From NCBI RefSeq assembly GCF_003386285.1, contig NZ_QPNC01000013.1, forward strand, positions 1 through 64,000: a DNA stretch of 64,000 nucleotides, written 5' to 3'. This DNA comes from Nocardiopsis sp. FIRDI 009. Lineage in GTDB: Bacteria; Actinomycetota; Actinomycetes; Streptosporangiales; Streptosporangiaceae. Below, piece after piece: positions 3,607 to 64,000 of this stretch. The notes beneath the pieces were generated by a model that was not told where the DNA came from, did no database searches, and saw only the letters and a list, made by a program, of their open reading frames with translations. The position numbers and the translations under genes were made by a program. The first letter of the stretch is position 1. Each line of letters begins with the position of its first letter.

Positions 3607-3822
3607 GTGGAGTGCTACGACTGTGCCCGTGAGGGGCCGACCGCCTCCGCCGTCGCGGTGTGTATGAGGTGCGGGGCCGGGGTGTGCATCGAGCACGCGC
3701 ACGAGACCCCGGTGGAGGTCCGCCGGGCCGCGAACCCGGGGCAGAGCGAGCTGCCCGATCCGGCCCGCCACATCACCTGCCCGGTCTGCTACCACGCCGA
3801 GGGGCTCGACCACGGAGGCTGA
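3607..3822 (+). CDS. DUF2180-like zinc-ribbon small protein
   Basis: A 71-aa cytoplasmic protein with Cys pairs ECYDCA, CMRCGAG and CPVCYH plus several His residues, which should bind zinc. The pattern and length match the actinobacterial DUF2180 family, whose function is unknown. An ATG exists at 3589, but a strong GGAGGAGG (3591-3598) sits 8 bases before GTG 3607, so I place the start at the GTG, giving the family-typical beginning MECYDC. It lies 135 bp after the WD40 kinase and may share its transcript. Confidence 0.75.
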   Translation: MECYDCAREGPTASAVAVCMRCGAGVCIEHAHETPVEVRRAANPGQSELPDPARHITCPVCYHAEGLDHGG

Positions 3823-25693: not shown

Positions 25694-28213
25694 GTGAGCG
25701 CTTCCACTCCCCACTCCCCACGCTTCCCCAAGGTCTGGGGGAGGGTCCCGCCGCAGAACAAGAACTTCACCGGCCGCGCCGAGCAGCTCCAGAACCTGTA
25801 CGACGGGCTGCGCGGCCAGGTGACGGCGGTCGTACCGCACACCCTCCACGGCTACGGCGGCGTCGGCAAGACCCTCATGGCGGTGGAGTACGCCCACCGC
25901 TACCGGGAGGAGTACGACCTGGTGTGGTGGATCATGGCCGACCAGCCCGGGCTGGTCCGCTCGGCACTGGCCCACCTGGCCCCGCACCTGGACCTGCCCG
26001 GCCCCGGACTGACCGGTGTGGAGGACGCCGCCAACGGGGTCCTCGACGCGCTGCGGCGGGGTGAGCCGTACTCGCGGTGGCTGCTGATCTTCGACAACGC
26101 CGACGAGCCCGAGGACCTAACCGACGTCATCCCGCAGGGACCCGGGCACGTGCTGGTCACCACCCGCAACCACCGCTGGGAGTCGGTGGCCAGGACCGTG
26201 TCGGTCAACGTCTTCCCCGCGCACGAGAGCGTGGAGTTCCTCAAGCGGCGCATCCCCCGGGGGATCAGTGTCGAGGACGCGGTCGAGCTGGCGGAGGCGC
26301 TCGGCCACCTCCCGCTGGCGCTGGAGCAGGCCGGGGCGCTCCAGTCCGAGACCGGGATGTCGGCGCGCGAGTACATGCGGCTGCTCTCCGAGCGCACCGG
26401 GCCCCTCCTGCGCGAGGGCAAACCCCCCGAGTACCCGGAGCCGATGACCGCCGCCTGGCAGCTGTCGGTGGCCAAGCTCCGGGAGAACCTGCCCGAGGCG
26501 ATGGAGCTGCTGCGCTGCTGCGCCTTCTTCGGTCCCGACCCGATCCCGCGCGACCTGTTCTTCCCGGTGGAGGGCGGCCAGATCCGGCCCGAGCTGGCGG
26601 AGCTGCTGGCCGACCCCATCCGGCTGAGCCGGGCGGTCGGCCAGTTGGGGCGGTACGCTCTGGTGCGGCTGGACAACGCCAACCGCACCATCCAGGTGCA
26701 CCGACTCATCCAGGCCCTGCTGCGCGAGGAGCTCGACGAGTCGATGCGGGACTCGATCCGGGCCGAGGTGTGGTCCCTGCTCAGCGCGTCCGCCCCGGAG
26801 AGCCGGACCGACCCCGCGGCGCAGTCCCGCTACCAGGAGCTGCTGCCGCACGTGGGCCCCTCCCGGGTGGCGGAGAGCACCCGCCCCGAGGTGCGCAGGT
26901 TCGCGCTGAGCATGCTCAGCTTCCTGTTCGTGGTCGGCAACTACGAGACCGCCAGCCGCTACGCGCGCGTGTTCATCGACCAGTGGGTGGCCGACTCCGG
27001 GGACGAGGACCCGCACGTGCTGGAGGCCCAGCGCCTGTACGCCAACCGGCTGCGCGACCTGGGCCGCTACCAGGAGGCCCACGACCTCAACCGCGCCATC
27101 CTGCCGAAGGTGCGCCGGACCCTGGGGCGCACCCACAGCGAGACCCTCAACGTGCTGTCGGGGCTGGGGGCCGACTACCGGGCGCGCGGGGACTTCTGGC
27201 GGGCCCGGGAGCACGACGAGGAGACCCTGCGGCTGCACGAGGAGACCCTGGGGCCCAACGAGTCCGCCACCCTGCGCGCGCTGCACAACCTGGGCATCGA
27301 CTACGCGCTGACCAGTGACTTCACCGGCGCCCAGGCACGGCACGAGCGCGCGTACATGCTGTACAAGCGGCGCAGCGCCGCCCCCGGCTCACCGGTCCTG
27401 CTGTCGTTCTGGCACGGCCTGGCCCTGTCGGTGCGCCTGGCGGGGGACTTCACCGAGGCCTGCGACCTGGGTGAGGACGCGCTGGCCTACGGGCGCGAGC
27501 AGCTGGGGGTCGAGCATCCGAGGACGCTGCGCACCCAGATGGACCTGGCGATCGCGCGCCGCATGTCCGGTGAGTTCGAGGAGGCGCTCGAACTGGCGCT
27601 GGACGTGCACTCGCGCTACCTGCGGTTGTACGGCATCGACCACCCCGAGACCCTGGCCGCGGCCATGTGCCTGACCAACATCTGGCGGATGACCGGGGAG
27701 CTGACGGGTGCGCTGGAGCTGGGTGAGGACACCGACCTGCGGTACGTGCGGGCGTACGGCCCCGAGCACCCCTACAACCACGGGTGCACGAGCAACGTCG
27801 CCCTGCTGTACCGGCTGCTGGGTGACGCGTCGCGGGCTCGGGCGATGAACGAGTCGGCGCTGGCCGCCCTGGACGGCAAGCTGGGACGGGACCACCACTA
27901 CTCGTTGGGGGTGGCGATCAACCTGGCCAGCGACCTGTCCGCGCTGGGCGAGACCAAGAACGCGGTGCGGTTGGGCCGGGGCACCCTGCGCCGGCTGCGC
28001 GCGCTGTTGGGCGACGACCACCACAACACGCTGGCGTGCGCGGCCAACCTGGCGCTCGACCTGCGGGAGGAGGGCGCCGCGGAGGAGGCCGACGCCCTGG
28101 CGGAGACCACGCACACGGCGCTGGTGCGGACGCTGGGCCGGGAGCACCACTTCACGTCGACCGCGCGGCAGGGCGGCCGGATGATCACCGACTTCGACCC
28201 GCCGCTGCTCTGA
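25694..28213 (+). CDS. fxsT: FxSxx-COOH system NB-ARC/tetratricopeptide protein
   Basis: An 839-aa protein beginning at GTG 25694, with CGGAGGA 7-8 bases before. Residues about 10-330 are an NB-ARC/STAND ATPase: entry motif PPQNKNFTGRAEQLQNLYDG, Walker A GYGGVGKT (about 54-61), Walker B WLLIFDNADEP, sensor LVTTRNHRW, and GHLPLALEQAGA. The C-terminal half is about ten tetratricopeptide repeats with the recurring form TLxxxxxLA...G. FxsT proteins accompany FxSxx RiPP loci; their exact role is unknown, perhaps sensing or delivering the peptide. It is divergent from fxsA with a 256-bp shared promoter region. Confidence 0.9.
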   Translation: MSASTPHSPRFPKVWGRVPPQNKNFTGRAEQLQNLYDGLRGQVTAVVPHTLHGYGGVGKTLMAVEYAHRYREEYDLVWWIMADQPGLVRSALAHLAPHLDLPGPGLTGVEDAANGVLDALRRGEPYSRWLLIFDNADEPEDLTDVIPQGPGHVLVTTRNHRWESVARTVSVNVFPAHESVEFLKRRIPRGISVEDAVELAEALGHLPLALEQAGALQSETGMSAREYMRLLSERTGPLLREGKPPEYPEPMTAAWQLSVAKLRENLPEAMELLRCCAFFGPDPIPRDLFFPVEGGQIRPELAELLADPIRLSRAVGQLGRYALVRLDNANRTIQVHRLIQALLREELDESMRDSIRAEVWSLLSASAPESRTDPAAQSRYQELLPHVGPSRVAESTRPEVRRFALSMLSFLFVVGNYETASRYARVFIDQWVADSGDEDPHVLEAQRLYANRLRDLGRYQEAHDLNRAILPKVRRTLGRTHSETLNVLSGLGADYRARGDFWRAREHDEETLRLHEETLGPNESATLRALHNLGIDYALTSDFTGAQARHERAYMLYKRRSAAPGSPVLLSFWHGLALSVRLAGDFTEACDLGEDALAYGREQLGVEHPRTLRTQMDLAIARRMSGEFEEALELALDVHSRYLRLYGIDHPETLAAAMCLTNIWRMTGELTGALELGEDTDLRYVRAYGPEHPYNHGCTSNVALLYRLLGDASRARAMNESALAALDGKLGRDHHYSLGVAINLASDLSALGETKNAVRLGRGTLRRLRALLGDDHHNTLACAANLALDLREEGAAEEADALAETTHTALVRTLGREHHFTSTARQGGRMITDFDPPLL

Positions 28214-28298
28214 CCGCCCGCGCGGGCGGGGTCCGGGACCCGGTCCGCGTCAGCTCCGGGGCGGGCGGGCGCGCGTGGGGCGCCGTCCTCCGGTTCGG

Positions 28299-29672
28299 TC
28301 AGCGCGGTCGGGTCCGGTCAGCGCGGTCGGCTGTGGGGGCGGCGTGTCCCGCCCCCCGCGGGGTTCCGTTGCGGGCGCGCCACCGCTCCCGGTGGCGGTG
28401 GGAGGCGGCCTCGGCCGCCTCGGCGATCCCGTCGGGCACCTCCTCGGCCAGCCAGGAGGCGAGCGTCCGTTCGGTCGCCGCCAGGAAGCGCGCTCCGTCT
28501 GGTGTGAGTCTTCCGGATCCGGCCACCGTGCGCGCGGCCCCGTGGGCGGCCGAGCGCCAGTGCGCGAAGTCGGCGTGGGCGCGCCGGGCCTCCTCTCCCC
28601 GGGCCACCAGGCGGTGGCGGCGCCAGAACCCGGCCACCCCCAGGTGGGCGTACACCCCTTGGAGGAGCCCGGACACGGGTCTGGGGTCCGGGCGCCAGGG
28701 CGCGTAGTGGGTGCTCCCGTCGTCCGGGAGGGTGAGCGGGACCAGGTCGAGCAGGGCCATGAGTTTGGCGTGCTGCACCTCGTGGGCGAAGGTGAGCGCG
28801 AACCGCACCGGGTCGGGCGGCCGGGACAGTCCCAGGGAGCCGAAGGCGTGCCGGGCGGTCGCGCTGGTGTGCGCCCCGCCGGGCGCGGTGATGGGGGTGA
28901 GCGCGACGACGGTGTCGGCCGCCTCCTCCGCGATGGTCCAGTGGTCGGTGACCAGCAGCTCCCACGCCTGGCGCAGGCTCACCCGCCACTCCCGGACCTC
29001 CCGCTCCGTCAGCCGGTGGGCGACCAGGTCGGCGCCGGGGAGGCGGTCGGGGTCCTGGTCGTCCAGGAGCAGGTCGAGGCGGCGTCCCGCGTGTTCGGCC
29101 GACATCCGGCGCAGCGCGTGCCACCCGGGGGCGTCCTGGTGCGGGTCGTCGGGGACCTCCACCCGGGCGCCGCCCCGCGACAGCAGCGCGCGACCGCCCT
29201 CCGTCTCGACCACGGCCGTGTCGCCCTCGCCCCGGCCGAGGAGGGCGCGGCCGAGGGCGGGCAGCGGCGCGGTCGGGCCGAACAGCGGCACCTCCAGGCT
29301 GGCGGTCAGGCGGGCCCGGAGGGCGGCGGTCGCCGCGAGCGCCGCCATCGTGCCGACGCGGGGCGCCTCGTCGCGGTGGCCGTCCAGCGCCAGTGCGGTG
29401 CGCCGCGCCCAGACCCCGACCGACGGGTGGCGCAGGACGGGGGCCACGGCCTCCGGTGCGGCCTCCTGTGCGGCGGCGAGCAGGTCGTAAGCGGTTCGGA
29501 GGCGGTCCGCATCGGGGTGCCGTCGGGCGAGGGCGGCGTCCAGGACCCGGCGGACCAGGAGCAGGTGTTTGGCGTACTGGGCGCGGCGGAGGGGACCGGT
29601 GGCCGCCCGGCCTCCCGCGCCGCGGGCGAGAGCGTCGAACACGGCGTCCGGGAGGGGGCCTTCGGGGGGCAT
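28299..29672 (-). CDS. HExxH-motif protein of the FxSxx locus
   Basis: A 457-aa protein of the mod_HExxH family that co-occurs with radical-SAM RiPP maturases. The metal-site motif is FAHEVQHAK at about residue 297; a following WRPDPRPVSGLLQGVYAHLG and a distal Glu-rich helix are typical. The family resembles metallopeptidases, and members have been proposed to modify or process the RiPP; the reaction is not certain here. ATG 29672 immediately follows the fxsB TGA (TGAATG), so translation is coupled. The C-terminal Arg-rich tail includes a short DNA duplication (GGTCAGCGCGGTCGG twice). Confidence 0.85.
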   Translation of the reverse strand: MPPEGPLPDAVFDALARGAGGRAATGPLRRAQYAKHLLLVRRVLDAALARRHPDADRLRTAYDLLAAAQEAAPEAVAPVLRHPSVGVWARRTALALDGHRDEAPRVGTMAALAATAALRARLTASLEVPLFGPTAPLPALGRALLGRGEGDTAVVETEGGRALLSRGGARVEVPDDPHQDAPGWHALRRMSAEHAGRRLDLLLDDQDPDRLPGADLVAHRLTEREVREWRVSLRQAWELLVTDHWTIAEEAADTVVALTPITAPGGAHTSATARHAFGSLGLSRPPDPVRFALTFAHEVQHAKLMALLDLVPLTLPDDGSTHYAPWRPDPRPVSGLLQGVYAHLGVAGFWRRHRLVARGEEARRAHADFAHWRSAAHGAARTVAGSGRLTPDGARFLAATERTLASWLAEEVPDGIAEAAEAASHRHRERWRARNGTPRGAGHAAPTADRADRTRPR

Positions 29673-30920
29673 TCAGCGTCCTTCCCGTAGGCGCGCGACG
29701 TCCGCGGCCACGGTCTGGCGGACGTGCTCGATGAGCCGGTACAGGTCCCGGCAGTACACCGAGGGGTTGCGGAATCCGGAACCGCTCCGGTACCGGTGCG
29801 GGTACAGCCCGCCGCCGCACACGCGGGCCAGGGGGCAGGCCGCGCAGGTGGGGCCCAGGGCGCGGGCCCCGATCTGGCGCGCGGCGACGGAGGGCAGGTA
29901 CAGGGCCTGGTCGAAGGCGTGGGTGAGGGTGTGCAGGGGGGTGGCGGCCGCGCCGTCGTAGGCGGACCTGAGGCTGTCGACCTGTTCGATGGAGCCGTCG
30001 GTCTCCACGACCACGAGCGCCGCCGGGGACAGGCCGACGCTCTCGGTGCGGGAGGGCCGGCCCAGGACCAGGCGGATGATCTCGTTGAACAGGCGGATGT
30101 TGGTCTCGCGCCTGGGGGCGTGGTACCAGCGGTCGAAGGCGGCGACGAGCCAGGCGCCGTAGGCGGCGCCGTCCGGGGTCCAGCCTCGCGGCGGGGTGTC
30201 CCAGTTGCCGTGCGGCAGGAGCAGGTCGACGGTGGGCGGGGCGAACTCCAGGAGCGCCTCGTAGGTGGCCACGGGGTCGGACTCCAGGTCGACGGTGGTC
30301 AGGAGTCCGCTCATCAGGTGGCGGTAGCGCGGGGAGCCGAGCAGTTCCAGCCCGGCGCGGACCTCGGCGTGGGTGCCGCGTCCGTCGAAGCGGCGGCGGT
30401 GTCGGTCGTGGTCCTCCCGAGTCCCGTCGACGCTGACGCCGACGCGCACGCCGAGGTCGTCGAACAGGTCGAGGAAGTGGGTGTCCAGCAGGACGCCGTT
30501 GGTCTGGAGGCGCAGGTCGATGTGGACGTCGGGTTCGTTGGCCTTGCGCAGGACCTGGACGGTGTGGCGCAGGTGGTCGAGTCCGACGAGGAGTGGTTCG
30601 CCGCCGTGCAGGATGACGTCGACCCGGCCGCGGCCGTGGGCGCGGGCGTGTTCGGCGATCCGCTCGGCGACCCGTTCGACGACGGGTCTGGCCATGCGCC
30701 GGGGCTGGTCGCGCCACCCCTGGTCGGCCATCTCGTACATGTAGCAGTAGTCGCAGGCGAGGTTGCACCTGCTGTGCACCTTGAGGACGAACTCGCGGAA
30801 GGGGGTCGGGCGCCATCCCCGGGCGAGCAGGTCCTCGACGTCCAGGGTCTCGGGCCATTCTCCACGGGTCCGTGTGCGTTCACGAACCCGTGTTCCTCTG
30901 TCGTCGGCGCTCCGTGCCAC
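29673..30920 (-). CDS. fxsB: Radical SAM/SPASM peptide maturase FxsB
   Basis: A 415-aa enzyme starting at GTG 30920, with AGGAGG 8 bases upstream. The radical-SAM cluster motif is CNLACDYCY (Cys52, 56, 59), which binds the [4Fe-4S] cluster that cleaves S-adenosylmethionine. HGGEPLL and SVDG motifs follow. The C-terminal region has SPASM-like Cys (PTCAACPLARVCGGGLYPHRY) for auxiliary clusters. FxsB enzymes form a C-C crosslink from an aromatic residue to the Cbeta of the residue two places on in FxSxx peptides. The substrate is most likely FxsA, encoded 4.2 kb away. Confidence 0.93.
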   Translation of the reverse strand: MARSADDRGTRVRERTRTRGEWPETLDVEDLLARGWRPTPFREFVLKVHSRCNLACDYCYMYEMADQGWRDQPRRMARPVVERVAERIAEHARAHGRGRVDVILHGGEPLLVGLDHLRHTVQVLRKANEPDVHIDLRLQTNGVLLDTHFLDLFDDLGVRVGVSVDGTREDHDRHRRRFDGRGTHAEVRAGLELLGSPRYRHLMSGLLTTVDLESDPVATYEALLEFAPPTVDLLLPHGNWDTPPRGWTPDGAAYGAWLVAAFDRWYHAPRRETNIRLFNEIIRLVLGRPSRTESVGLSPAALVVVETDGSIEQVDSLRSAYDGAAATPLHTLTHAFDQALYLPSVAARQIGARALGPTCAACPLARVCGGGLYPHRYRSGSGFRNPSVYCRDLYRLIEHVRQTVAADVARLREGR

Positions 30921-57013: not shown

Positions 57014-58234
57014 TCAGCCCGGGTCACGGTCCGCGGAGGCGCCCCGGACGACCTCGCCCACGCGCACCGGCTCCACCCACGGCGGCGGGGCCGGGGCGTC
57101 GGGGCCGATGAGCGCGGCGACGAGCCGGGCCGAGACGGGTTCGTCCGGCCAGGGCGTGTGGCCGTCGGTGAGCACGACGACCACCTGCGGCCGTGCGGGC
57201 GAGGAGAGCGCCGCCCGGACACCGGCCCGCATGTCGGTGCCGCCGCCCCCGGCCAGCTCCACCTGTTCGGCGCTGGTCACCCGCGAGGCCGCCTGGACGT
57301 CGGCGTCGCAGGCCAGCACGGTCAGCCGTTCGCCGCCGACCCCGACCTGGCGCAGCACCCCGGTCACCTCGGCCAGGGCGGCGGCCAGGTCGTCCTCCCC
57401 CATGGAGCCGGAGGTGTCGATGACGACCGCGACCCGGGGCACCGGTCGCCGCAGGCTCGGCAGCACCACGCGTGGAAGGGAGGCGGAGCGGCGGGAGGGG
57501 CGGCGGTAGGTGTAGTCGGCCGCGCCGCTGGCCCAGGCGACGGCCTCGCGGACCGCGCCCGCCAGGACCGTCCGCCAGTCCACGGTCGGTTCCAGGATCC
57601 GTTCGGCCCATCGCCGCCAACCGCCGGGCACGGAGCCCCGGGACCGCTGGTGGGCGCGGATGGCCTCGGCGGTGGCGCGGCGGAGCGCGTCGGCCTCCAC
57701 CCCGGTGACGCCGCCCGCGGCGGTGCCGTCCTCCCAGTCGGCGGGATGTCCGTGGGCGCCGGATCCGCAGTCGGTGCGACGGTGGATCTGGGGCAGGCGC
57801 GGCAGGTACTCCTCGAACAGCAGCCCCTCGGGCAGGTCGAAGGCGGCGGGCAGGACCGCCCCGGAGGGTAGGTCGAGACCGTCGGCGACCAGGTCGTCGT
57901 TGATCTCGCAATCCTGGGCGATGTTGACGCGCAGCGGGTCGGCGCGGCGTGCGGCCGGGAGCCGGTCGGCCCGCCCGTGGTGGTCGCGCAGCAGGTGGGA
58001 CACCTCGTGGATCCACACCCCGGCGAGTTCGGGTACGGGGGTGGCGGCCACGAACTCCGGACGGACGTAGCACCGCCAGTGCCGGTCCACGCCCATGGTC
58101 GGCACGCGGGTGCTGGGCACCGCGGTCAGTGAGTACAGCGCCGAGGCCAGGTAGGGCCGGGCGGTGGCGGCGCGGTAGCGGGCCGCGAGCAGCTTCGTGC
58201 GGTCCAGGTCGGCGACCCGGTCGGTCGTGTCCAC
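57014..58234 (-). CDS. HExxH metallopeptidase-like protein with C-terminal VWA domain
   Basis: A 406-aa DUF2201-type protein. The N-terminal part contains WIHEVSHLLRDHH (His76-Glu-x-x-His80), a metallopeptidase-like zinc site. The C-terminal part is a VWA domain with intact MIDAS: VIDTSGSM (about residues 268-275), the GGGGTDMRAG segment and VVVLTDGHTPWPDE. Such proteins work with a MoxR AAA+ ATPase, encoded 3 bp upstream. GTG 58234 fits the operon spacing. Last gene of a five-gene unit. Proteolytic activity is not proven. Confidence 0.88.
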   Translation of the reverse strand: MDTTDRVADLDRTKLLAARYRAATARPYLASALYSLTAVPSTRVPTMGVDRHWRCYVRPEFVAATPVPELAGVWIHEVSHLLRDHHGRADRLPAARRADPLRVNIAQDCEINDDLVADGLDLPSGAVLPAAFDLPEGLLFEEYLPRLPQIHRRTDCGSGAHGHPADWEDGTAAGGVTGVEADALRRATAEAIRAHQRSRGSVPGGWRRWAERILEPTVDWRTVLAGAVREAVAWASGAADYTYRRPSRRSASLPRVVLPSLRRPVPRVAVVIDTSGSMGEDDLAAALAEVTGVLRQVGVGGERLTVLACDADVQAASRVTSAEQVELAGGGGTDMRAGVRAALSSPARPQVVVVLTDGHTPWPDEPVSARLVAALIGPDAPAPPPWVEPVRVGEVVRGASADRDPG

Positions 58235-58237
58235 GGG

Positions 58238-59413
58238 TCAGCCGCCGGTGAGCGCCCCGGACAGCCGGAGCAGGTCGAGGAAGGCGTCGATCCCCTCCGG
58301 AACCGGCCAGTCGGCGTCGCGCAGCGCCGCCAGGTCGGTGGCGGCCCGGGCGGCGACGTCCGGCGCGCCCGCGTCCACGGCCTTGGCGAGCACGGTCCAG
58401 GCCGACTCCCAGCGGCGCCGGGTCAGGTCCGACTCCACGGCCGCGACCACGGCGGTGAGGAAGGCCAGCTGCCGGTCCCCGCGTTCGGGCAGGGCGAAGG
58501 CGTCCGGGTCGGCGAGCACCCGGTCGGGGTCGGGCAGGTCGAGTTCCTCCAGGTAGGTGAGCAGCTCCAGGCCCGCGCCGTCGCCGACCGCGCCGACCAG
58601 CGCGGCGGCCAGCGCGTCCCGCCCGGTGCCGGTGGCGTGGGCGGCGGCCAGCAGCCGCAGCGCCATCTCCCAGGTGCGCGGGGACGGCCAGGCGCCGCCC
58701 CGGGCCTCGGCGTCGCCCGGCAGGTGGTGGACCAGTCCGGGGCGGGCGCTGAGGAAGCCGGAGACCGCGCCGCGGGCCCGGGCGGTCGCGGAGGGCGCGG
58801 CGGCGGGGTCGACGCGGCGGATCGGGACGGTCGGCCACACCCCGGTCATACCGCGGGCCACCACGCGGGCGTCGTGGGTCCAGTGCAGGTGGACGAACCG
58901 GTTGGCCAGCGGCGGGCTGAGGTGCCAGCCGTCGGCGGCGCTGGCGGGCGGGTTGGCCGCGGCCACGACGCGGATCGGCTCGGGCAGGGTCAGGCTGCCG
59001 ACCCGGCGTTCGAGGACGACGCGCAGCAGGGCGGCCTGGACCGCGGGCGGGGCGGAGGAGAGTTCGTCGAAGAAGACCACGCCGCGTCCGGCCCGGGACA
59101 GCCGCACCGCCCAGTCGGGCGGGGCCATGGGCACGCCGGAGGCGGCGGGGTCGTCCCCGATGACGGGGAGCCCGGAGAAGTCGGAGGGCTCGTGGACGCT
59201 GGCGATGACGGTCTCCAGCGGGACGCCGAGCCCGGCGGCGAGCTGTTCCAGCCCGGCGGACTTGCCGATGCCCGGTTCTCCCCACAGCAGGACGGGCAGG
59301 TTGGCCGTGACGGCGAGGGCCAGCGCCTCCAGTTGGACGCTGTCGGCGGGCTCGGTACGGCGGCGCGACAGCTCCCGGTTGAGGTCGTCGGCGGCGGCCA
59401 GGGGATCGGTCAC
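58238..59413 (-). CDS. MoxR-family AAA+ ATPase
   Basis: A 391-aa ATPase that, with VWA proteins, remodels or activates target proteins. Walker A is GEPGIGKS (residues 45-52), Walker B GVVFFDELSSAPPAV, sensor RVVAAANPPASAADG, and the LANRFVHLHW region with the arginine finger. GTG 59413 overlaps the upstream ankyrin gene stop in GTGA, with GGAGGA in front. Its targets may be the ankyrin and LRR proteins of the same operon. Confidence 0.9.
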   Translation of the reverse strand: MTDPLAAADDLNRELSRRRTEPADSVQLEALALAVTANLPVLLWGEPGIGKSAGLEQLAAGLGVPLETVIASVHEPSDFSGLPVIGDDPAASGVPMAPPDWAVRLSRAGRGVVFFDELSSAPPAVQAALLRVVLERRVGSLTLPEPIRVVAAANPPASAADGWHLSPPLANRFVHLHWTHDARVVARGMTGVWPTVPIRRVDPAAAPSATARARGAVSGFLSARPGLVHHLPGDAEARGGAWPSPRTWEMALRLLAAAHATGTGRDALAAALVGAVGDGAGLELLTYLEELDLPDPDRVLADPDAFALPERGDRQLAFLTAVVAAVESDLTRRRWESAWTVLAKAVDAGAPDVAARAATDLAALRDADWPVPEGIDAFLDLLRLSGALTGG

Positions 59414-61176
59414 AGTTCCTCCAGGTCGGGGTGGTCCGCCACGATCCTGTCGGCGAGCCACGACAGTTCGCGCCGCTCCCGCCAGTCGACGAGCATCGGC
59501 AGGGTGAATTCCGCGCCGTTGACCATGCCGATGACGTCGACCCGTGCGCCCGCCTCCACCAGGTCCCGGACGAGCCGCTCCGATCCGTGCTCGGCGATGG
59601 CGGTGAACAGCGGTGTGCGCTCCTCCTCGTCCAGGGCCTCGATGTCGAGCCCGGCCGCCAGCAGCCTGGGCAACAGGTCCTCGTGGTCGATCCGGTACAG
59701 CAGGTGGAGCGGGGTGCGGCCGAGCCGGTCGCACACGCACGGGTCCACCCCGGCGTCCAGGAGACGCAGGACCCCGGGGACGTCGCCGTGCTGGATCCGC
59801 CGCAGCAGGTCGCGGCGCTGGGCGCGCAGGGCCCGGGGCAGCCGTCCCCTCCCCGTCCGCCACGCCTCGCGGGCGGCGAAGCAGCCCGCGCCACGCCCGC
59901 CGAGGGCCTGGAGGGCGGCCTCGCGGTCCTCCTCCTCCCGAGTGTGCGGGAGGCGCAGTTCCCCGCCGGTGAAGGCCACCTCGTGCCACGCCCCCTGGCA
60001 GCGGATCCGCACCGGGGCGGGCGGGGTGGGCTCCGGCGGCCCCACCGGTCCGGTCGGGGCGGGGGCGGCCGGGGCGAGGGCCCCGCGCACCAGGGGGTGC
60101 AGTTCGTCGAGCGGTGTCCTTCCGTCGCGCAGCAGGTCGATGTCGGGCGACCTCTGCCAGCACACCTCAGGCAGCAGAACGGCGTCCCCGGGGGGCTGGA
60201 GGTCGTGGGGCGCGACCCGCAGCCGCGCCCGGTCCGGCCCGTCGAGGTCCACCCTGATCACGGTGCGCACGCCGTTGGGGATCCAGAACCGGTCCCCGTG
60301 GCCCGCCGCGGCCAGCCTCCGCGCCTCGGCGCCGAGCCGGACCGGGTCGAGCGGAAGGCGCCGCAGCTCCTCGACCGGGTCGACCTCGCCCTGGAGCCAC
60401 TCCTGGGTCACGGGGGCGGTGTCGACCGCCACCCCCACGGCGGCGAGGGCGGCCAGGACGTCCCCGCGTTCGTAGGTCCGGGTGACCCACTCGGTGAAGG
60501 CGGCGGGGTCGTCGCGGCCGGGGTCGGCCGAGGGCAGGTCGGCGGCCGGGCGGGGTGTGCCGTCGGGGTTGAGGAACGGCACGCGCCTCCCGTCGCCGCC
60601 CAGGCGTTCGCCCAGTTCGGCGGCGTACCGGACGTCCCACAGGTGGCGTGCGGCCGTCCAGGGGTGCTCGACGTTGCGCCAGAAGACGGCGTAGGGCCAG
60701 TCGGTGTTCAGAGCGGTCGTGAACCGGCCGCTGTGGGGGGCGGTCGCGTCGTCGAGCGTCAGCGTCAGCCGCTGCGCTCCGTGCACCGCCCAGGAGGGTG
60801 TGCCCACCACCAGGCGGGGTGCCTCCTCGGCGGTGCCGCGCGCCGACAGCACGACCGTCTGGTCGGGGACGAGCGTGGTGCGTGACCGGGCGATCCGGGG
60901 CAGGTGCCAGCGGAGCAGGTCGGGGGCCAGGTGTCGCAGATCGTCCGCCAACGCGGCGGCGAAGGCGCTCCCGTGCTCGTTGGCCACCCCGGCCAGGTCG
61001 AAGGCCACGTCCACACCCGCGGCCGCGCACGCCCCACGCCAGTCACCGGCCAGACGACGCTCCGTCGCCCGCTCGATCATCCACCCGGGTACGGCGTAGC
61101 GACGGATCGCGCGCAGCCAGGCGATCCGCTCCCGCTCCCGGGCCAGCCTCCGCGCCCGTGCCGACACGGCGTTCAT
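59410..61176 (-). CDS. Ankyrin-repeat protein A (MoxR operon)
   Basis: A 588-aa protein. Residues 1-390 are a region of unknown fold shared with the next paralog (AVPGWMIERATERRLAGDWR, FLNPDGTPRPAADLP). The C-terminal 160 residues are about four ankyrin repeats (DLLRRIQHGDVPGVLRLLDA, RLGRTPLHLLYRIDHEDLLP, RTPLFTAIAEHGSERLVRDL). ATG 61176 overlaps the paralog's stop in ATGA, with GGAGGACGG upstream. Parts of its 5' half are almost identical at DNA level with the paralog. It may be a scaffold or substrate of the MoxR/VWA machine; inferred only. Confidence 0.85.
   Translation of the reverse strand: MNAVSARARRLARERERIAWLRAIRRYAVPGWMIERATERRLAGDWRGACAAAGVDVAFDLAGVANEHGSAFAAALADDLRHLAPDLLRWHLPRIARSRTTLVPDQTVVLSARGTAEEAPRLVVGTPSWAVHGAQRLTLTLDDATAPHSGRFTTALNTDWPYAVFWRNVEHPWTAARHLWDVRYAAELGERLGGDGRRVPFLNPDGTPRPAADLPSADPGRDDPAAFTEWVTRTYERGDVLAALAAVGVAVDTAPVTQEWLQGEVDPVEELRRLPLDPVRLGAEARRLAAAGHGDRFWIPNGVRTVIRVDLDGPDRARLRVAPHDLQPPGDAVLLPEVCWQRSPDIDLLRDGRTPLDELHPLVRGALAPAAPAPTGPVGPPEPTPPAPVRIRCQGAWHEVAFTGGELRLPHTREEEDREAALQALGGRGAGCFAAREAWRTGRGRLPRALRAQRRDLLRRIQHGDVPGVLRLLDAGVDPCVCDRLGRTPLHLLYRIDHEDLLPRLLAAGLDIEALDEEERTPLFTAIAEHGSERLVRDLVEAGARVDVIGMVNGAEFTLPMLVDWRERRELSWLADRIVADHPDLEEL
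60904..61098. repeat. 195-bp tract shared with ankyrin paralog (copy 1)
   Basis: Matches 62664-62858 with one difference (60915/62675). Further shared tracts: 60481-60580 with 62241-62340 (one difference, same offset of 1760) and 60029-60093 with 61795-61859. Such near-identity inside otherwise diverged paralogs points to recent gene conversion or selection. Confidence 0.9.
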
Positions 61177-62918
61177 CCGTCCTCCAGCAGGTCGGTCCAC
61201 TCCTGTTCGGGTTCGGTGCCCCGCCCCAGCCGGAGCCGGGCTTCGAGCACGTCGGCCAGGGAGGTCTGCTCCCCGCCGTCCTCGTCCCACAGCCCGATCG
61301 CCTCGGTACGCGCGCCGGCGGCGAGGAGGGCCCGGACGAGGTCGGGCGAGCCGTACTCGTAGGCGGCGGCGAACAGCGGGGTGCGCCGGAGGCGGTCTTC
61401 GGACTCCAGGTCCAGCCCCTTCTCCAGCAGCAGCGGCAGCATCACCCCGTGGTCGAGGCGGCTCAGGTGGTGCAGCAGCGTGCGCCGCGCCCCGTCCCGG
61501 ATCCGCGGGTCCACCCCGAGTTCCACCAGCCGCAGGACGCCGGGGGTGTCGCCGTGCAGCACCCGCTCGAACAGGTCGAGCCGCTGGGCGCGCAGCGCCT
61601 TGGGCAACCAGCCTCCGCCGCTCGTCCACCGCTCCCGCACCGTGAAACAGCCCGGGCTGCCGCCGCCGAAGGCCCGGAGGGCGGCCTCGCGTTCGATCTC
61701 CTGCCGACTGTGCGGGACGCGCAGCTCCCCGTCGGCGGACACCACCTCGTGCCACACGCCCCGGCAGCGGACCCGCACCGGAGCGGGCGGCTCGGGCTCC
61801 GGCGGCCCCACCGGTCCGGTCGGGGCGGGGGCGGCCGGGGCGAGGGCCCCGCGCACCAGCGGATGGAGGTCGTCGATCCCCAGGGTGCCGTCGCGCAGGA
61901 GGTCGAGGTCGCACGAACGCCGCCAGGCGGCGTCGGGCAGGCGCACGGCGTCGCCCAGGTCGCCGCCGCGGAGCCCGACGCCGACCCCCAGGCGGGATGT
62001 CCGGCCGGAGACGTCGAGCAGCAGCGTGCCGGAGGAGAGACGGGCCCAGTAGCGGTCGCCGTACCCTCCGGCGGCGAGCCGCCGCGCCTCCGCCTCCAGG
62101 AGGTCCAGCGCCACGTGCGCCGCGGAGAGCGAGGCTGCGGGGTCGGGCCGCCACCCGCGCCCCGAGCCGGGGCGCGCCCGGTCCAGGTCCACGCCCGCCG
62201 CCGCGAGCGCGGCCCCGGCGTCACCGCGCTCCTCCAGCTGGGTGACCCACTCGGTGAACGCGGCGGGGTCGTCGCGGCCGGGGTCGGCCGAGGGCAGGTC
62301 GGCGGCCGGGCGGGGTGTGCCGTCGGGGTTGAGGAACGGCGCCCGCAGCGCGCTCCCGCCCAGGCGCTCGCGCAGCTCACCGGCGCGCCGGGCGTCCCAC
62401 AGGTGGCGGGCCTCGGTCCAGATCTGCGGGGTGGGCCCGCTCGCCTCGTACCCGTACACGGAGGGGAGGCCGTCGTCGCCCGACGAGCGCTCCCGGCTCC
62501 GGAGACGGAGGGTCATCCGCTGCGGGGCGTCCCACGCCCCGCGGGGCGTGTCCAGGGCGAGGACGGGCGCGTCGGCCGGTACCGCCGCTCCCGCGCCGGG
62601 CCGGGACAGGAGCACGGTCCGGCGGGGAGCGAGCGTGCCCCGGTCCGGTCCGTACCGTGGCGCGTGCCAGCGGACCAGGTCGGGGGCCAGGTGTCGCAGA
62701 TCGTCCGCCAACGCGGCGGCGAAGGCGCTCCCGTGCTCGTTGGCCACCCCGGCCAGGTCGAAGGCCACGTCCACACCCGCGGCCGCGCACGCCCCACGCC
62801 AGTCACCGGCCAGACGACGCTCCGTCGCCCGCTCGATCATCCACCCGGGTACGGCGTACCGGCGCACCCGCCGCGTCATGGCGGTATACGCCGCCGCGTG
62901 GCCGAGCCACCACGTCAC
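61173..62918 (-). CDS. Ankyrin-repeat protein B (MoxR operon)
   Basis: A 581-aa paralog of protein A: the same N-terminal region, a Pro/Ala linker (APAAPAPTGPVGPPEPEPPA), and C-terminal ankyrin repeats (DLFERVLHGDTPGVLRLVEL, RRTLLHHLSRLDHGVMLPLL, RRTPLFAAAYEYGSPDLVRA). GTG 62918 overlaps the LRR gene stop (GTGA), which fits the operon's style; ATG 62879 is the alternative. The middle region (residues about 110-190) differs most from protein A, so the two may recognise different partners. Confidence 0.85.
   Translation of the reverse strand: MTWWLGHAAAYTAMTRRVRRYAVPGWMIERATERRLAGDWRGACAAAGVDVAFDLAGVANEHGSAFAAALADDLRHLAPDLVRWHAPRYGPDRGTLAPRRTVLLSRPGAGAAVPADAPVLALDTPRGAWDAPQRMTLRLRSRERSSGDDGLPSVYGYEASGPTPQIWTEARHLWDARRAGELRERLGGSALRAPFLNPDGTPRPAADLPSADPGRDDPAAFTEWVTQLEERGDAGAALAAAGVDLDRARPGSGRGWRPDPAASLSAAHVALDLLEAEARRLAAGGYGDRYWARLSSGTLLLDVSGRTSRLGVGVGLRGGDLGDAVRLPDAAWRRSCDLDLLRDGTLGIDDLHPLVRGALAPAAPAPTGPVGPPEPEPPAPVRVRCRGVWHEVVSADGELRVPHSRQEIEREAALRAFGGGSPGCFTVRERWTSGGGWLPKALRAQRLDLFERVLHGDTPGVLRLVELGVDPRIRDGARRTLLHHLSRLDHGVMLPLLLEKGLDLESEDRLRRTPLFAAAYEYGSPDLVRALLAAGARTEAIGLWDEDGGEQTSLADVLEARLRLGRGTEPEQEWTDLLEDG
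62664..62858. repeat. 195-bp tract shared with ankyrin paralog (copy 2)
   Basis: Partner of 60904-61098 (offset 1760, one mismatch); encodes the N-terminal MIERATERRLAGDWRGACAA region of protein B. Confidence 0.9.
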
Positions 62919-64000
62919 CGGTACCGACTCGCGATCATCCGGACGTCGTCGTCGGCGGCGGGGGCGGCGGGGTTCAGGAACGGGGCGATGGCGCGCTTGG
63001 TCCTGCGGGGGACGCCCGGTCCGAGCCCCACGTACTCCAGACGGCTGCCGCCGGCCACCGCGGCGAGCACCCGGGAGGCTCCCCTGTGGGTGATGCCGGT
63101 GTGGCGTACCTCCAGCCGCCGCAGCGGGCTGCCGGGGACGGCGGCGGCCAGCGCGGCCAGGCCCTCGTCGCCGGTGGCGTTGGCGGGGGCGCCCAGGGTG
63201 CGTTCGGAGGGCGGGCGGCCCAGGTCGAGCGCCTCGATGCCGCCGAGCGCGTCCGCCAGGGCCAGTGCGCCGTCGGGGCCGATGCCGTTGCCGCCCAGGC
63301 CCAGCGTGACCGGACGGTCGGGGTCGACGGCGGCGGCGATCACGGTCGCGCCCGCGTCGCCCAGGTGGTTGGCGGGGGCGTACAGTTCACGCACCCGCGC
63401 CTGGCGCAGGAGGGCGGCGAGCAGCGGGGCGGTGTCGGGCCCCAGGCCGTTGCCGCCGAGGAAGATCCGGTCCAGGGGCACCGGACGGTCCCGGAGGACG
63501 TCGAGCAGGGCGCGCAGCCCGTGGGCGGTGAGGCCGGTGTTGACCAGGTCGAGGGTGCGGATCCGGTGGTTGCGGGCCAGGGCGGCGGCGAGCGCGCGCA
63601 CGCCGGTGTCCCCGATCGGGTTGCGCTTGAGCCACAGGGCGCGGACGGTGTCGTCGTCGGCCAGGCGGTCGGCGAGCGCGGTCGCCCCGTCCGCGTCGAT
63701 CCGGTTGCAGCCCAGGTAGAGGGTGTGCAGGCCGTGCCCGGGGGTGAGGGCGTCGGCGAGGGCGCGCGCGCCGGGGGTGCCGACGGCGTTGGTGCCCAGC
63801 AGCAGGTGGGCGGCGTGCGGTGAGGCGGTGGCGGCGGGGATGGCGCGGAGCGCGCCGGGCAGGCCGAGCCCCTGCTTGCACAGGTCGAGGCGGCCGTCGG
63901 ACCGCAGGGTGCCGAGGGGGAACTCCTCGTCCGCCGCCACCGGGGCGGGGTCGGCCAACCGGGCGAGCAGCGGTTCGAGCGCGGCTGGGTCGGCCGGGGG
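62915..64000 (-). CDS. Leucine-rich-repeat protein (partial at window edge)
   Basis: At least 361 residues of an LRR protein of the ribonuclease-inhibitor type: repeated LHTLYLGCNRIDADGATALA, RALWLKRNPIGDTGVRALAA, RTLDLVNTGLTAHGLRALLD. The frame is open to the window edge; a TTG at 63958 could be a start, but upstream codons (PPADPAALEPLLARL) read well, so the gene probably begins outside. It is the first visible gene of the operon, overlapping the ankyrin B start by 4 bp. It is probably a protein-binding scaffold. Confidence 0.85.
   Translation of the reverse strand, partial: PPADPAALEPLLARLADPAPVAADEEFPLGTLRSDGRLDLCKQGLGLPGALRAIPAATASPHAAHLLLGTNAVGTPGARALADALTPGHGLHTLYLGCNRIDADGATALADRLADDDTVRALWLKRNPIGDTGVRALAAALARNHRIRTLDLVNTGLTAHGLRALLDVLRDRPVPLDRIFLGGNGLGPDTAPLLAALLRQARVRELYAPANHLGDAGATVIAAAVDPDRPVTLGLGGNGIGPDGALALADALGGIEALDLGRPPSERTLGAPANATGDEGLAALAAAVPGSPLRRLEVRHTGITHRGASRVLAAVAGGSRLEYVGLGPGVPRRTKRAIAPFLNPAAPAADDDVRMIASRYR

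Follow-up and report, generated by a model that had tools for sequence, protein, structure and literature searches.

A tRNA-like RNA heads an actinobacterial operon of LRR, front-ankyrin, MoxR and DUF2201-VWA proteins

We analyzed the first 64,000 bases (the window; G000:C5:1-64000, G000 being the genome it comes from) of a 157,663-base contig of Nocardiopsis sp. FIRDI 009, and found that a five-gene, minus-strand operon reaching past its end is headed by a structured, tRNA-like RNA. The operon encodes a leucine-rich-repeat (LRR) protein, two ankyrin-repeat proteins (ANK1 and ANK2) that share an N-terminal region we call the front, a MoxR-type AAA+ ATPase, and a DUF2201-type protein combining a zincin-like domain with a von Willebrand factor A (VWA) domain. 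The RNA appears to serve outside translation and is very probably a functional part of the system. We consider it reasonably likely that the front-ankyrin proteins are adaptors of a MoxR-VWA machine, whereas our overall reading, an adaptor-fed MoxR/VWA-zincin machine tied to tRNA surveillance and used in stress or defence, is offered tentatively, at somewhat less than an even chance.

The unit itself is well defined. An earlier sequence-only reading of this DNA had described five minus-strand genes with three 4-bp overlaps and one 3-bp gap, a description exact to the base: from LRR to VWA, the junctions are GTGA, ATGA and GTGA, followed by the gap. The LRR start codon, an ATG at contig position 64051, lies 51 bp past the window end. 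That reading also took the five genes for one unit, and the same gene set is kept far beyond the Nocardiopsis strain. A scan with two ankyrin-protein patterns returned at least 534 encoded relatives, of which the best-scoring 78 loci were kept, with genes called by an in-house script. The unit occurs in a wide range of soil actinobacteria: these loci lie mainly in Streptomyces and Actinomadura, and also in Nonomuraea, Kitasatospora, Kibdelosporangium, Dactylosporangium, Actinoplanes, Catellatospora, Virgisporangium and others. The order LRR, ankyrin gene(s), MoxR, DUF2201-VWA is preserved without a gap in 55 of the 78, so the gene-neighborhood check that had been proposed excludes an adjacency confined to one strain, and relatives in many actinobacterial genera rule out a strain-specific unit. 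By content, 56 loci hold LRR, MoxR and VWA genes, 6 hold MoxR and VWA without LRR, 4 LRR only, 1 LRR and MoxR, and 11 none of the three; at L131, the LRR gene is separated from the rest of the unit. Among 62 loci with MoxR and VWA, the number of ankyrin genes directly upstream of MoxR is one in 50, two in 9, three in 2 and four in 1, and G021 carries ten between MoxR and LRR with unrelated genes interspersed. Exact 4-bp overlaps recur at 31/59 LRR-ankyrin, 42/63 ankyrin-MoxR and 16/62 MoxR-VWA junctions.

The RNA came to light through 8-mers common to 43-46 of 82 regions upstream of LRR genes. On the window's contig, ARAGORN calls a tRNA at 64216-64291, and the RNA scores 40.3 bits against the Rfam tRNA family (RF00005, gathering threshold 29). 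Its acceptor stem has 9 bp instead of 7 and its T arm is a normal 5 bp, while the anticodon arm is mostly unusable. Across 75 rows (two rows were not parsed and one is a repeat), a 5-6 bp anticodon stem with a 7-nt loop was present in 13, 8 of these with U33, and a canonical arm (5-bp stem, 7-nt loop, U33) in 8, the window's copy failing; the anticodons called vary widely between copies. Covariation supports the fold: in an alignment of 68 of the 84 called RNAs (62 distinct), 12 of 19 pairs changed on both sides, a value matched by 0 of 500 shuffles. Such changes affect 8 of the 9 acceptor-stem pairs, pairing is maintained in 99.2% of cells, and sliding the partners abolishes the signal. All 84 copies have a TANNNT box, a pattern picked after inspecting the sequences, whose end lies 6-12 nt ahead of the first paired base (shuffle mean 6.8). 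With a −10-like box this close, transcription probably starts on the stem itself, which would leave little or no leader for RNase P. SOS, HAIR, CIRCE, CtsR, SigR and sigma-70 type control were also considered upstream and set aside, none exceeding shuffles; among the upstream signals, the −10-like hexamer alone stood out.

We then asked how closely the RNA follows the operon. It lies directly upstream on the same strand in 57 of 61 LRR-MoxR loci, and at L128, one of the other four, the RNA model still matches weakly where the RNA would be expected. The spacing is short, with a median of 100 nt. Where a front occurs without MoxR, 13 of 17 stretches have the RNA (some of these stretches are cut operon ends); where front and MoxR occur without LRR, 1 of 20 loci has it (in three of the 20, the LRR end is on another stretch); and of 9 loci lacking a front, none does. 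L085 has a separate RNA before each of three lone ankyrin genes, L143 has one before LRR and another between ankyrin genes, and arrays of six (G016), four (G021) and three (G031 and G034) occur. Among 60 genomes, the window's own included, matches of at least 80 bits were confined to five with the ankyrin system, and the others reached at most 58 bits; since the model was built from copies of those five, the system-bearing genomes in the sample of the window's genus, their hits follow by construction and the informative part is that the other 55 all fall below 80 bits. Among 150 Streptomyces genomes, some of which probably duplicate genomes in the locus set (the RNA coordinates of G454 and L103, for instance, coincide), the RNA matched at E 1e-13 in 45. 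It reached at least 95 bits in 15, exactly those with a complete ankyrin-type front, which is split in two in one of them and in one piece in the other 14.

Because tRNA genes often act as island attachment sites (PMC3399842, in the portion available), the element might be a mere integration site or relic, functionally unrelated to the genes beside it. Varied surroundings would suit this: 41 of the 78 loci have unique surroundings, sharing being defined as two common flanking families. The same-strand placement, short spacing, covarying stem, −10-like box in every copy, separate copies at L085 and arrays of three to six in four relatives all argue against it, and we regard it as highly improbable.

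We next examined the proteins that vary most. ANK1 and ANK2 had been described as paralogues with a novel front; they are about 60% identical, and the front gives no Pfam match above the cut-off. Their ankyrin repeats match Pfam with best E values of 1.5e-7 and 5.3e-9. In a predicted structure, the front is modeled confidently, and its two domains, A and B, are related to each other (hhalign P 4e-6 over 60 columns); no PDB fold was found for it, the domains not having been folded singly. Despite their divergence as proteins, the two genes share identical tracts of 183, 81 and 66 nt, and gene conversion is the probable source of the longest. Identical runs of at least 45 nt occur in 5 of 20 multi-copy groups of ankyrin genes (one group is a repeat, L125 of G034). 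Median identity is 69% in the ankyrins and 77% in the LRR, compared with 41% and 36% in the two front inserts, and in every one of 903 pairs the front-ankyrin protein outpaces its three partners in divergence. With variable inserts set against conserved repeats, the front is the likelier target-recognition surface. The sequence-only reading had cast the repeat proteins as recognizers: their linkage to the MoxR-VWA pair stands, but within the ankyrin proteins it is the front inserts that vary, the repeats being conserved.

Between the front and the ankyrin repeats lies a C-H-H-C module, whose four residues are each invariant in 135 of 135 sequences having the column (136 segments from 99 loci, selected with a profile already containing these residues) and which may bind zinc. 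Ankyrin-free C-H-H-C proteins of about 250-300 aa adjoin MoxR-VWA in other actinobacterial lineages (L174, L175, L176 and L224), L176 having three in tandem, one of them called short. Such proteins also occur without MoxR-VWA (L221, L223 and L225), and at L219, L220 and L222, three further hits of the front model, the gene caller yields no C-H-H-C protein. A C-H-H-C module proposed for the MoxR-VWA partner at L060 was dropped, as hhalign lent it no support.

The other half of the system is more uniform. A MoxR and VWA-metallopeptidase pair with linked repeat proteins had been claimed, and the Pfam domains, HExxH, MIDAS and Walker A motifs are all present (Table 1). The DUF2201-VWA protein combines PF13203 and PF09967 (113.2 and 68.9 bits, above cut-off), corresponding to a DUF2201_N metallopeptidase domain (E 2.2e-32) and a DUF2201 VWA-like domain (E 5.7e-19); the VWA domain occupies residues 268-388 of 406, and the N-terminal DUF2201_N is the sole other domain found. 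In front loci, 77 of 79 VWA proteins keep HExxH together with histidines at +9 and +10, and all 79 have the MIDAS pattern D.S.S. MoxR homologues carry the Walker A pattern in 99 of 100 cases and Walker B in 100 of 100. By sequence, MoxR comes closest to midasin (E 8.6e-10) and PspF among proteins of solved structure. MoxR-VWA also has other partners, among them repeat-like or uncharacterized proteins. Two plasmids, of Xylanimonas and Rhodococcus (L209 and L210), show a different partner set, in which MoxR-VWA is followed by a tiny gene, an uncharacterized protein of 390 aa and a further AAA ATPase.

Front and VWA genes co-occur across genomes. The 60-genome set has VWA homologues in 10 genomes and front homologues in 6; DUF2201_N occurs in 30 of 296 genomes from the phylum, and the front model matches 23 of 396, including four matched through the C-H-H-C part alone. 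Counting fragments, 83 of the 150 Streptomyces genomes have a front and 89 a VWA (both 81, front only 2, VWA only 8, neither 59); Fisher's test gives p 3e-30, with no correction for kinship. Most of the 81 hold an ankyrin-free variant made up of a front protein of about 475 aa, MoxR and VWA, and 15 of the 150 genomes hold the ankyrin type with the high-scoring RNA. In genomes where an ankyrin gene lacks adjacent MoxR and VWA genes (one such gene sits at a contig end), a VWA is encoded elsewhere in 13 of 14, in 11 of these at 66-76% identity, which suggests that adaptors may act in trans.

We combined these observations into a model in which the MoxR ring and the DUF2201 protein, with its MIDAS and zinc-peptidase domain, would form an ATP-driven remodeling or cleavage machine. 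The front-ankyrin proteins would be interchangeable adaptors or sensors, their conserved C-H-H-C module and ankyrins docking with either the machine or the LRR protein, and their two variable front inserts recognizing a changing target. Transcription would begin at a tRNA-like RNA that keeps the acceptor stem and elbow, usually without a usable anticodon arm. This mimic might let the system read the state of tRNAs or of tRNA-handling enzymes, and such a reading would then engage the machine as a stress or anti-invader response. Of these steps, the sensing of tRNA state is the one we find doubtful. A bolder version, which we consider improbable as a whole, would make the system an undescribed RNA-protein sensing class: tRNA mimics made from their own promoters, with a 5′-triphosphate and locked by the 9-bp stem, would be bait or decoy for tRNA-attacking enzymes, and diversifying zinc-module/ankyrin sensors, several per genome, would signal in trans to one shared MoxR-VWA zinc-peptidase machine.

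A number of observations weigh against this model. RNA relatives of 70-86 bits occur in 30 more Streptomyces genomes without a complete front, which refutes the idea that the RNA is exclusive to the operon. Of 16 extra RNA copies that we read (four in system-bearing genomes), none has adjoining system genes, and no RNA was found with the ankyrin-free Streptomyces variant. Relatives without the system imply an RNA class wider than the operon, yet its high-scoring subclass tracks the operon. Single-copy folding gave z values from −2.5 to 0.1 over 10 copies, one of which beats shuffles by more than 2 standard deviations, and several minimum-energy folds are not cloverleaves. A two-hexamer promoter pattern is present in 0 of 84 upstream regions. 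HExxH is missing from the DUF2201-type proteins of L062-L065, L174-L176 and L198, which have other partners, so peptidase activity is dispensable for the wider DUF2201-type class. The genome of L095 has an ankyrin gene and no VWA match anywhere. Finally, comparison of 118 near with 97 far neighbors revealed no clear excess of PADLOC matches, and 17 of 60 loci (L066, L071, L076, L082, L086 and 12 more) have a short-chain dehydrogenase/reductase (SDR) gene directly 5′ of LRR, spaced by −7 to +50 bp; enzyme maturation would fit this linkage too.

The SDR gene would suit a maturation or quality-control chaperone, in which MoxR-VWA remodels a client enzyme (such as the linked SDR), the LRR and ankyrin proteins are client adaptors, and the tRNA-like element merely regulates or stabilizes the mRNA 5′ end. 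NorQ-NorD offers a precedent as a MoxR-VWA pair for metal insertion (PMC13036017), the B. cereus pseudo-tRNA has been proposed to act within a larger regulatory RNA (PMC3399842; both papers available in part), and the RNA here is probably at the transcript 5′ end. No common client emerges, however, as neighbors are singletons on the left in 26 of 60 loci and on the right in 38 of 61, and a housekeeping client would leave the variable inserts, tandem copies and gene conversion unexplained; we judge this account unlikely. Adjoining the VWA gene are a TerD-like gene in 4 of 61 loci and a metallo-beta-lactamase-fold gene in 5 of 61, these neighbor families being named by Pfam on one or few members each. 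The N-terminus of the L066 SDR is zinc-ribbon-like, with a weak DZR_2 match.

The patchy occurrence of the system bears on another account, a MoxR-vWA ternary system acting in conflict with phages or other bacteria. Invaders would be sensed by the front-ankyrin protein and countered by the zincin as effector, with the tRNA mimic serving as decoy or tripwire against anticodon nucleases. A conflict role has been predicted for MoxR-vWA pairs whose third component varies (PMC7159879 and PMC8195603, in the portions available), and patchy presence, expansion to ten copies, identical tracts and rapid divergence of the putative sensor fit this. Loci also decay: L061 (in G027), at the chromosomal place of the window's locus, has an LRR stretch fused into the MoxR tail, a shortened VWA and no copy found by the RNA model, and L266 is another such case. 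In G021, G016 and G031, the operon lies between GH3-like and ROK-like genes (identified by sequence reading) that are 2 bp apart in G000, an empty site; no empty site could be assigned to the window's own locus, whose two flanking genes lie apart in the compared genomes. The ankyrin-free variant and RNA relatives are also found on plasmids: front relatives on eight, RNA relatives on 10 from Streptomyces, and three plasmid stretches with RNA relatives have no system gene listed in an incomplete gene table. One plasmid of Streptomyces sp. NBC_01324 (L208) carries the ankyrin-free variant as a 475-aa hypothetical protein, MoxR and VWA.

Against a conflict role stand the PADLOC comparison and the viral searches. 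Near neighbors matched 22 PADLOC models, each in one protein and 18 of the 22 being PD-T4-6 models, while far neighbors matched one; with no clear excess near the operon, placement in a defence island was dropped. Scanned with LRR truncated by the window's edge, the window's proteins hit PADLOC models in their AAA and ankyrin parts alone, the best being a candidate model at E 2.4e-7, and the operon matches no known PADLOC anti-phage system. Searches of phage records and viral contigs recovered neither the front nor the RNA; 69 phage records hold distant DUF2201-like proteins. We hold a dedicated conflict system to be possible, if rather doubtful, and prefer the adaptor-fed machine tied to tRNA surveillance.

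Additional tRNA-like RNAs lie outside the operon. Five of the 16 extra copies are within 100 bp upstream of a same-strand gene and 11 are not; by sequence reading, the five genes are one hydrolase-like gene three times, one SDR-like and one AhpD-like. Several of the dispersed Streptomyces RNAs (L249-L265) have a TATGAT-like box upstream by eye, and three copies stand 29-49 bp before the same hydrolase-like gene. The window's genome has a second RNA at G000:C4:105989-106067 (L246:6990-7068) with a canonical GCA anticodon loop, located by sequence reading between a permease-like gene and a small antitoxin/toxin-like gene pair; the GH3-/ROK-like junction occupied by the operon in relatives is a few kb away. 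At 3673-3765 of the window, on the minus strand, ARAGORN calls a 93-nt tRNA-Ala (anticodon CGC) of odd length, with no match to the RNA model at E 0.1. Genes at 25694-30920 of the window resemble an FxSxx-COOH type peptide system by sequence reading.

Table 1 Features of the operon and its upstream RNA, in positions of the window unless marked as contig positions.
Feature	Position	Strand	Details
tRNA-like RNA, first element of the unit	contig 64215-64292	minus	upstream of LRR, 215 bp past the window end
LRR protein gene	62915-64051 (62915..64000 inside the window)	minus	378 aa; Pfam LRR_6 E 2.6e-14
ANK1	61173-62918	minus	GTG start, 581 aa; two-domain front, C-H-H-C module, ankyrin repeats
ANK1 front domain A	62304-62873	minus	residues 16-205; variable insert ~residues 89-165
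ANK1 front domain B	61803-62303	minus	residues 206-372; variable insert ~residues 246-335
ANK1 C-H-H-C module	61647-61766	minus	C385, H390, H403, C424
ANK1 ankyrin repeats	61299-61601	minus	residues ~440-540
ANK2, paralogue of ANK1	59410-61176	minus	ATG start, 588 aa
ANK2 C-H-H-C module	59881-60000	minus	same invariant residues
183-nt identical tract	ANK1 62676-62858 = ANK2 60916-61098	minus	nucleotide identity
MoxR-type AAA+ ATPase	58238-59413	minus	GTG start, 391 aa; Pfam AAA_5 E 4.7e-8
Walker A of MoxR	59258-59281	minus	motif position
DUF2201-VWA protein	57014-58234	minus	GTG start, 406 aa; N-terminal zincin-like domain, C-terminal VWA
HExxH (HEVSHLLRDHH) of DUF2201-VWA protein	57977-58009	minus	zincin-like domain
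MIDAS (DTSGS) of DUF2201-VWA protein	57404-57418	minus	VWA domain

These results link a common, poorly understood MoxR-VWA machine to a structured RNA, and provide experimental handles in the invariant C-H-H-C module, the variable inserts and an RNA separable from its promoter. As the system is present in Streptomyces, where standard genetics is available, what MoxR-VWA and its repeat partners sense or act on becomes testable. We found no description of the operon or the RNA in the literature searched, which was mostly open-access with bioRxiv largely outside its scope, nor in the available portions of PMC7159879, PMC8195603, PMC10907252, PMC12839542, PMC3399842 and PMC13036017. The same searches returned no report of MoxR-VWA linked to a structured RNA and nothing on MoxR with ankyrin and vWA in Streptomyces or on DUF2201 with MoxR.

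Several known systems share individual features with the operon. In the Ro60-YrlA ribonucleoprotein, a VWA protein with repeats is linked with a tRNA-like noncoding RNA; the operon differs in having MoxR and a zincin and an RNA that matches the Rfam tRNA family, and its five proteins give no TROVE match at E 1. Allo-tRNAs have an unusually long acceptor stem, with 8/4 or 9/3 acceptor/T stems, whereas the operon RNA is 9/5 and most of its anticodon arms are unusable; no paper on allo-tRNAs in actinobacteria turned up in the one search aimed at them. We know of no repeat-protein adaptors, RNA or DUF2201_N in NorQ-NorD or RavA-ViaA. Both resemble the operon in joining a MoxR ring to a VWA partner (for NorQ-NorD, PMC13036017, in the portion available). 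The B. cereus pseudo-tRNA tRNA-Other is likewise tRNA-like and non-translational, and forms part of longer RNAs, but it is a single case at an island edge, while the operon RNA is a covarying family tied to one operon type (PMC3399842, in the portion available).

The closest comparison is with the MoxR-vWA ternary systems (VMAP, iSTAND, TERNS3 and others), which also place a MoxR AAA+ beside a vWA and a variable third component. As far as the available portions of PMC7159879 and PMC8195603 go, these are predicted conflict systems found mainly in multicellular bacteria, with an effector domain typically C-terminal to the vWA; 'DUF2201' does not appear in the available main text of PMC7159879. 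The operon has a MoxR AAA+ with Walker A and B and, alongside it, a vWA with MIDAS. No VMAP, iSTAND or beta-propeller third component matched the five proteins in Pfam at E 1, library coverage of all such models being unconfirmed, and bpMoxR scored 20.8 bits, below its cut-off of 27. What sets the operon apart is a DUF2201-type vWA protein with an N-terminal zincin and no C-terminal effector, a third component composed of front, C-H-H-C module and ankyrins, and the addition of an LRR protein and a tRNA-like RNA.

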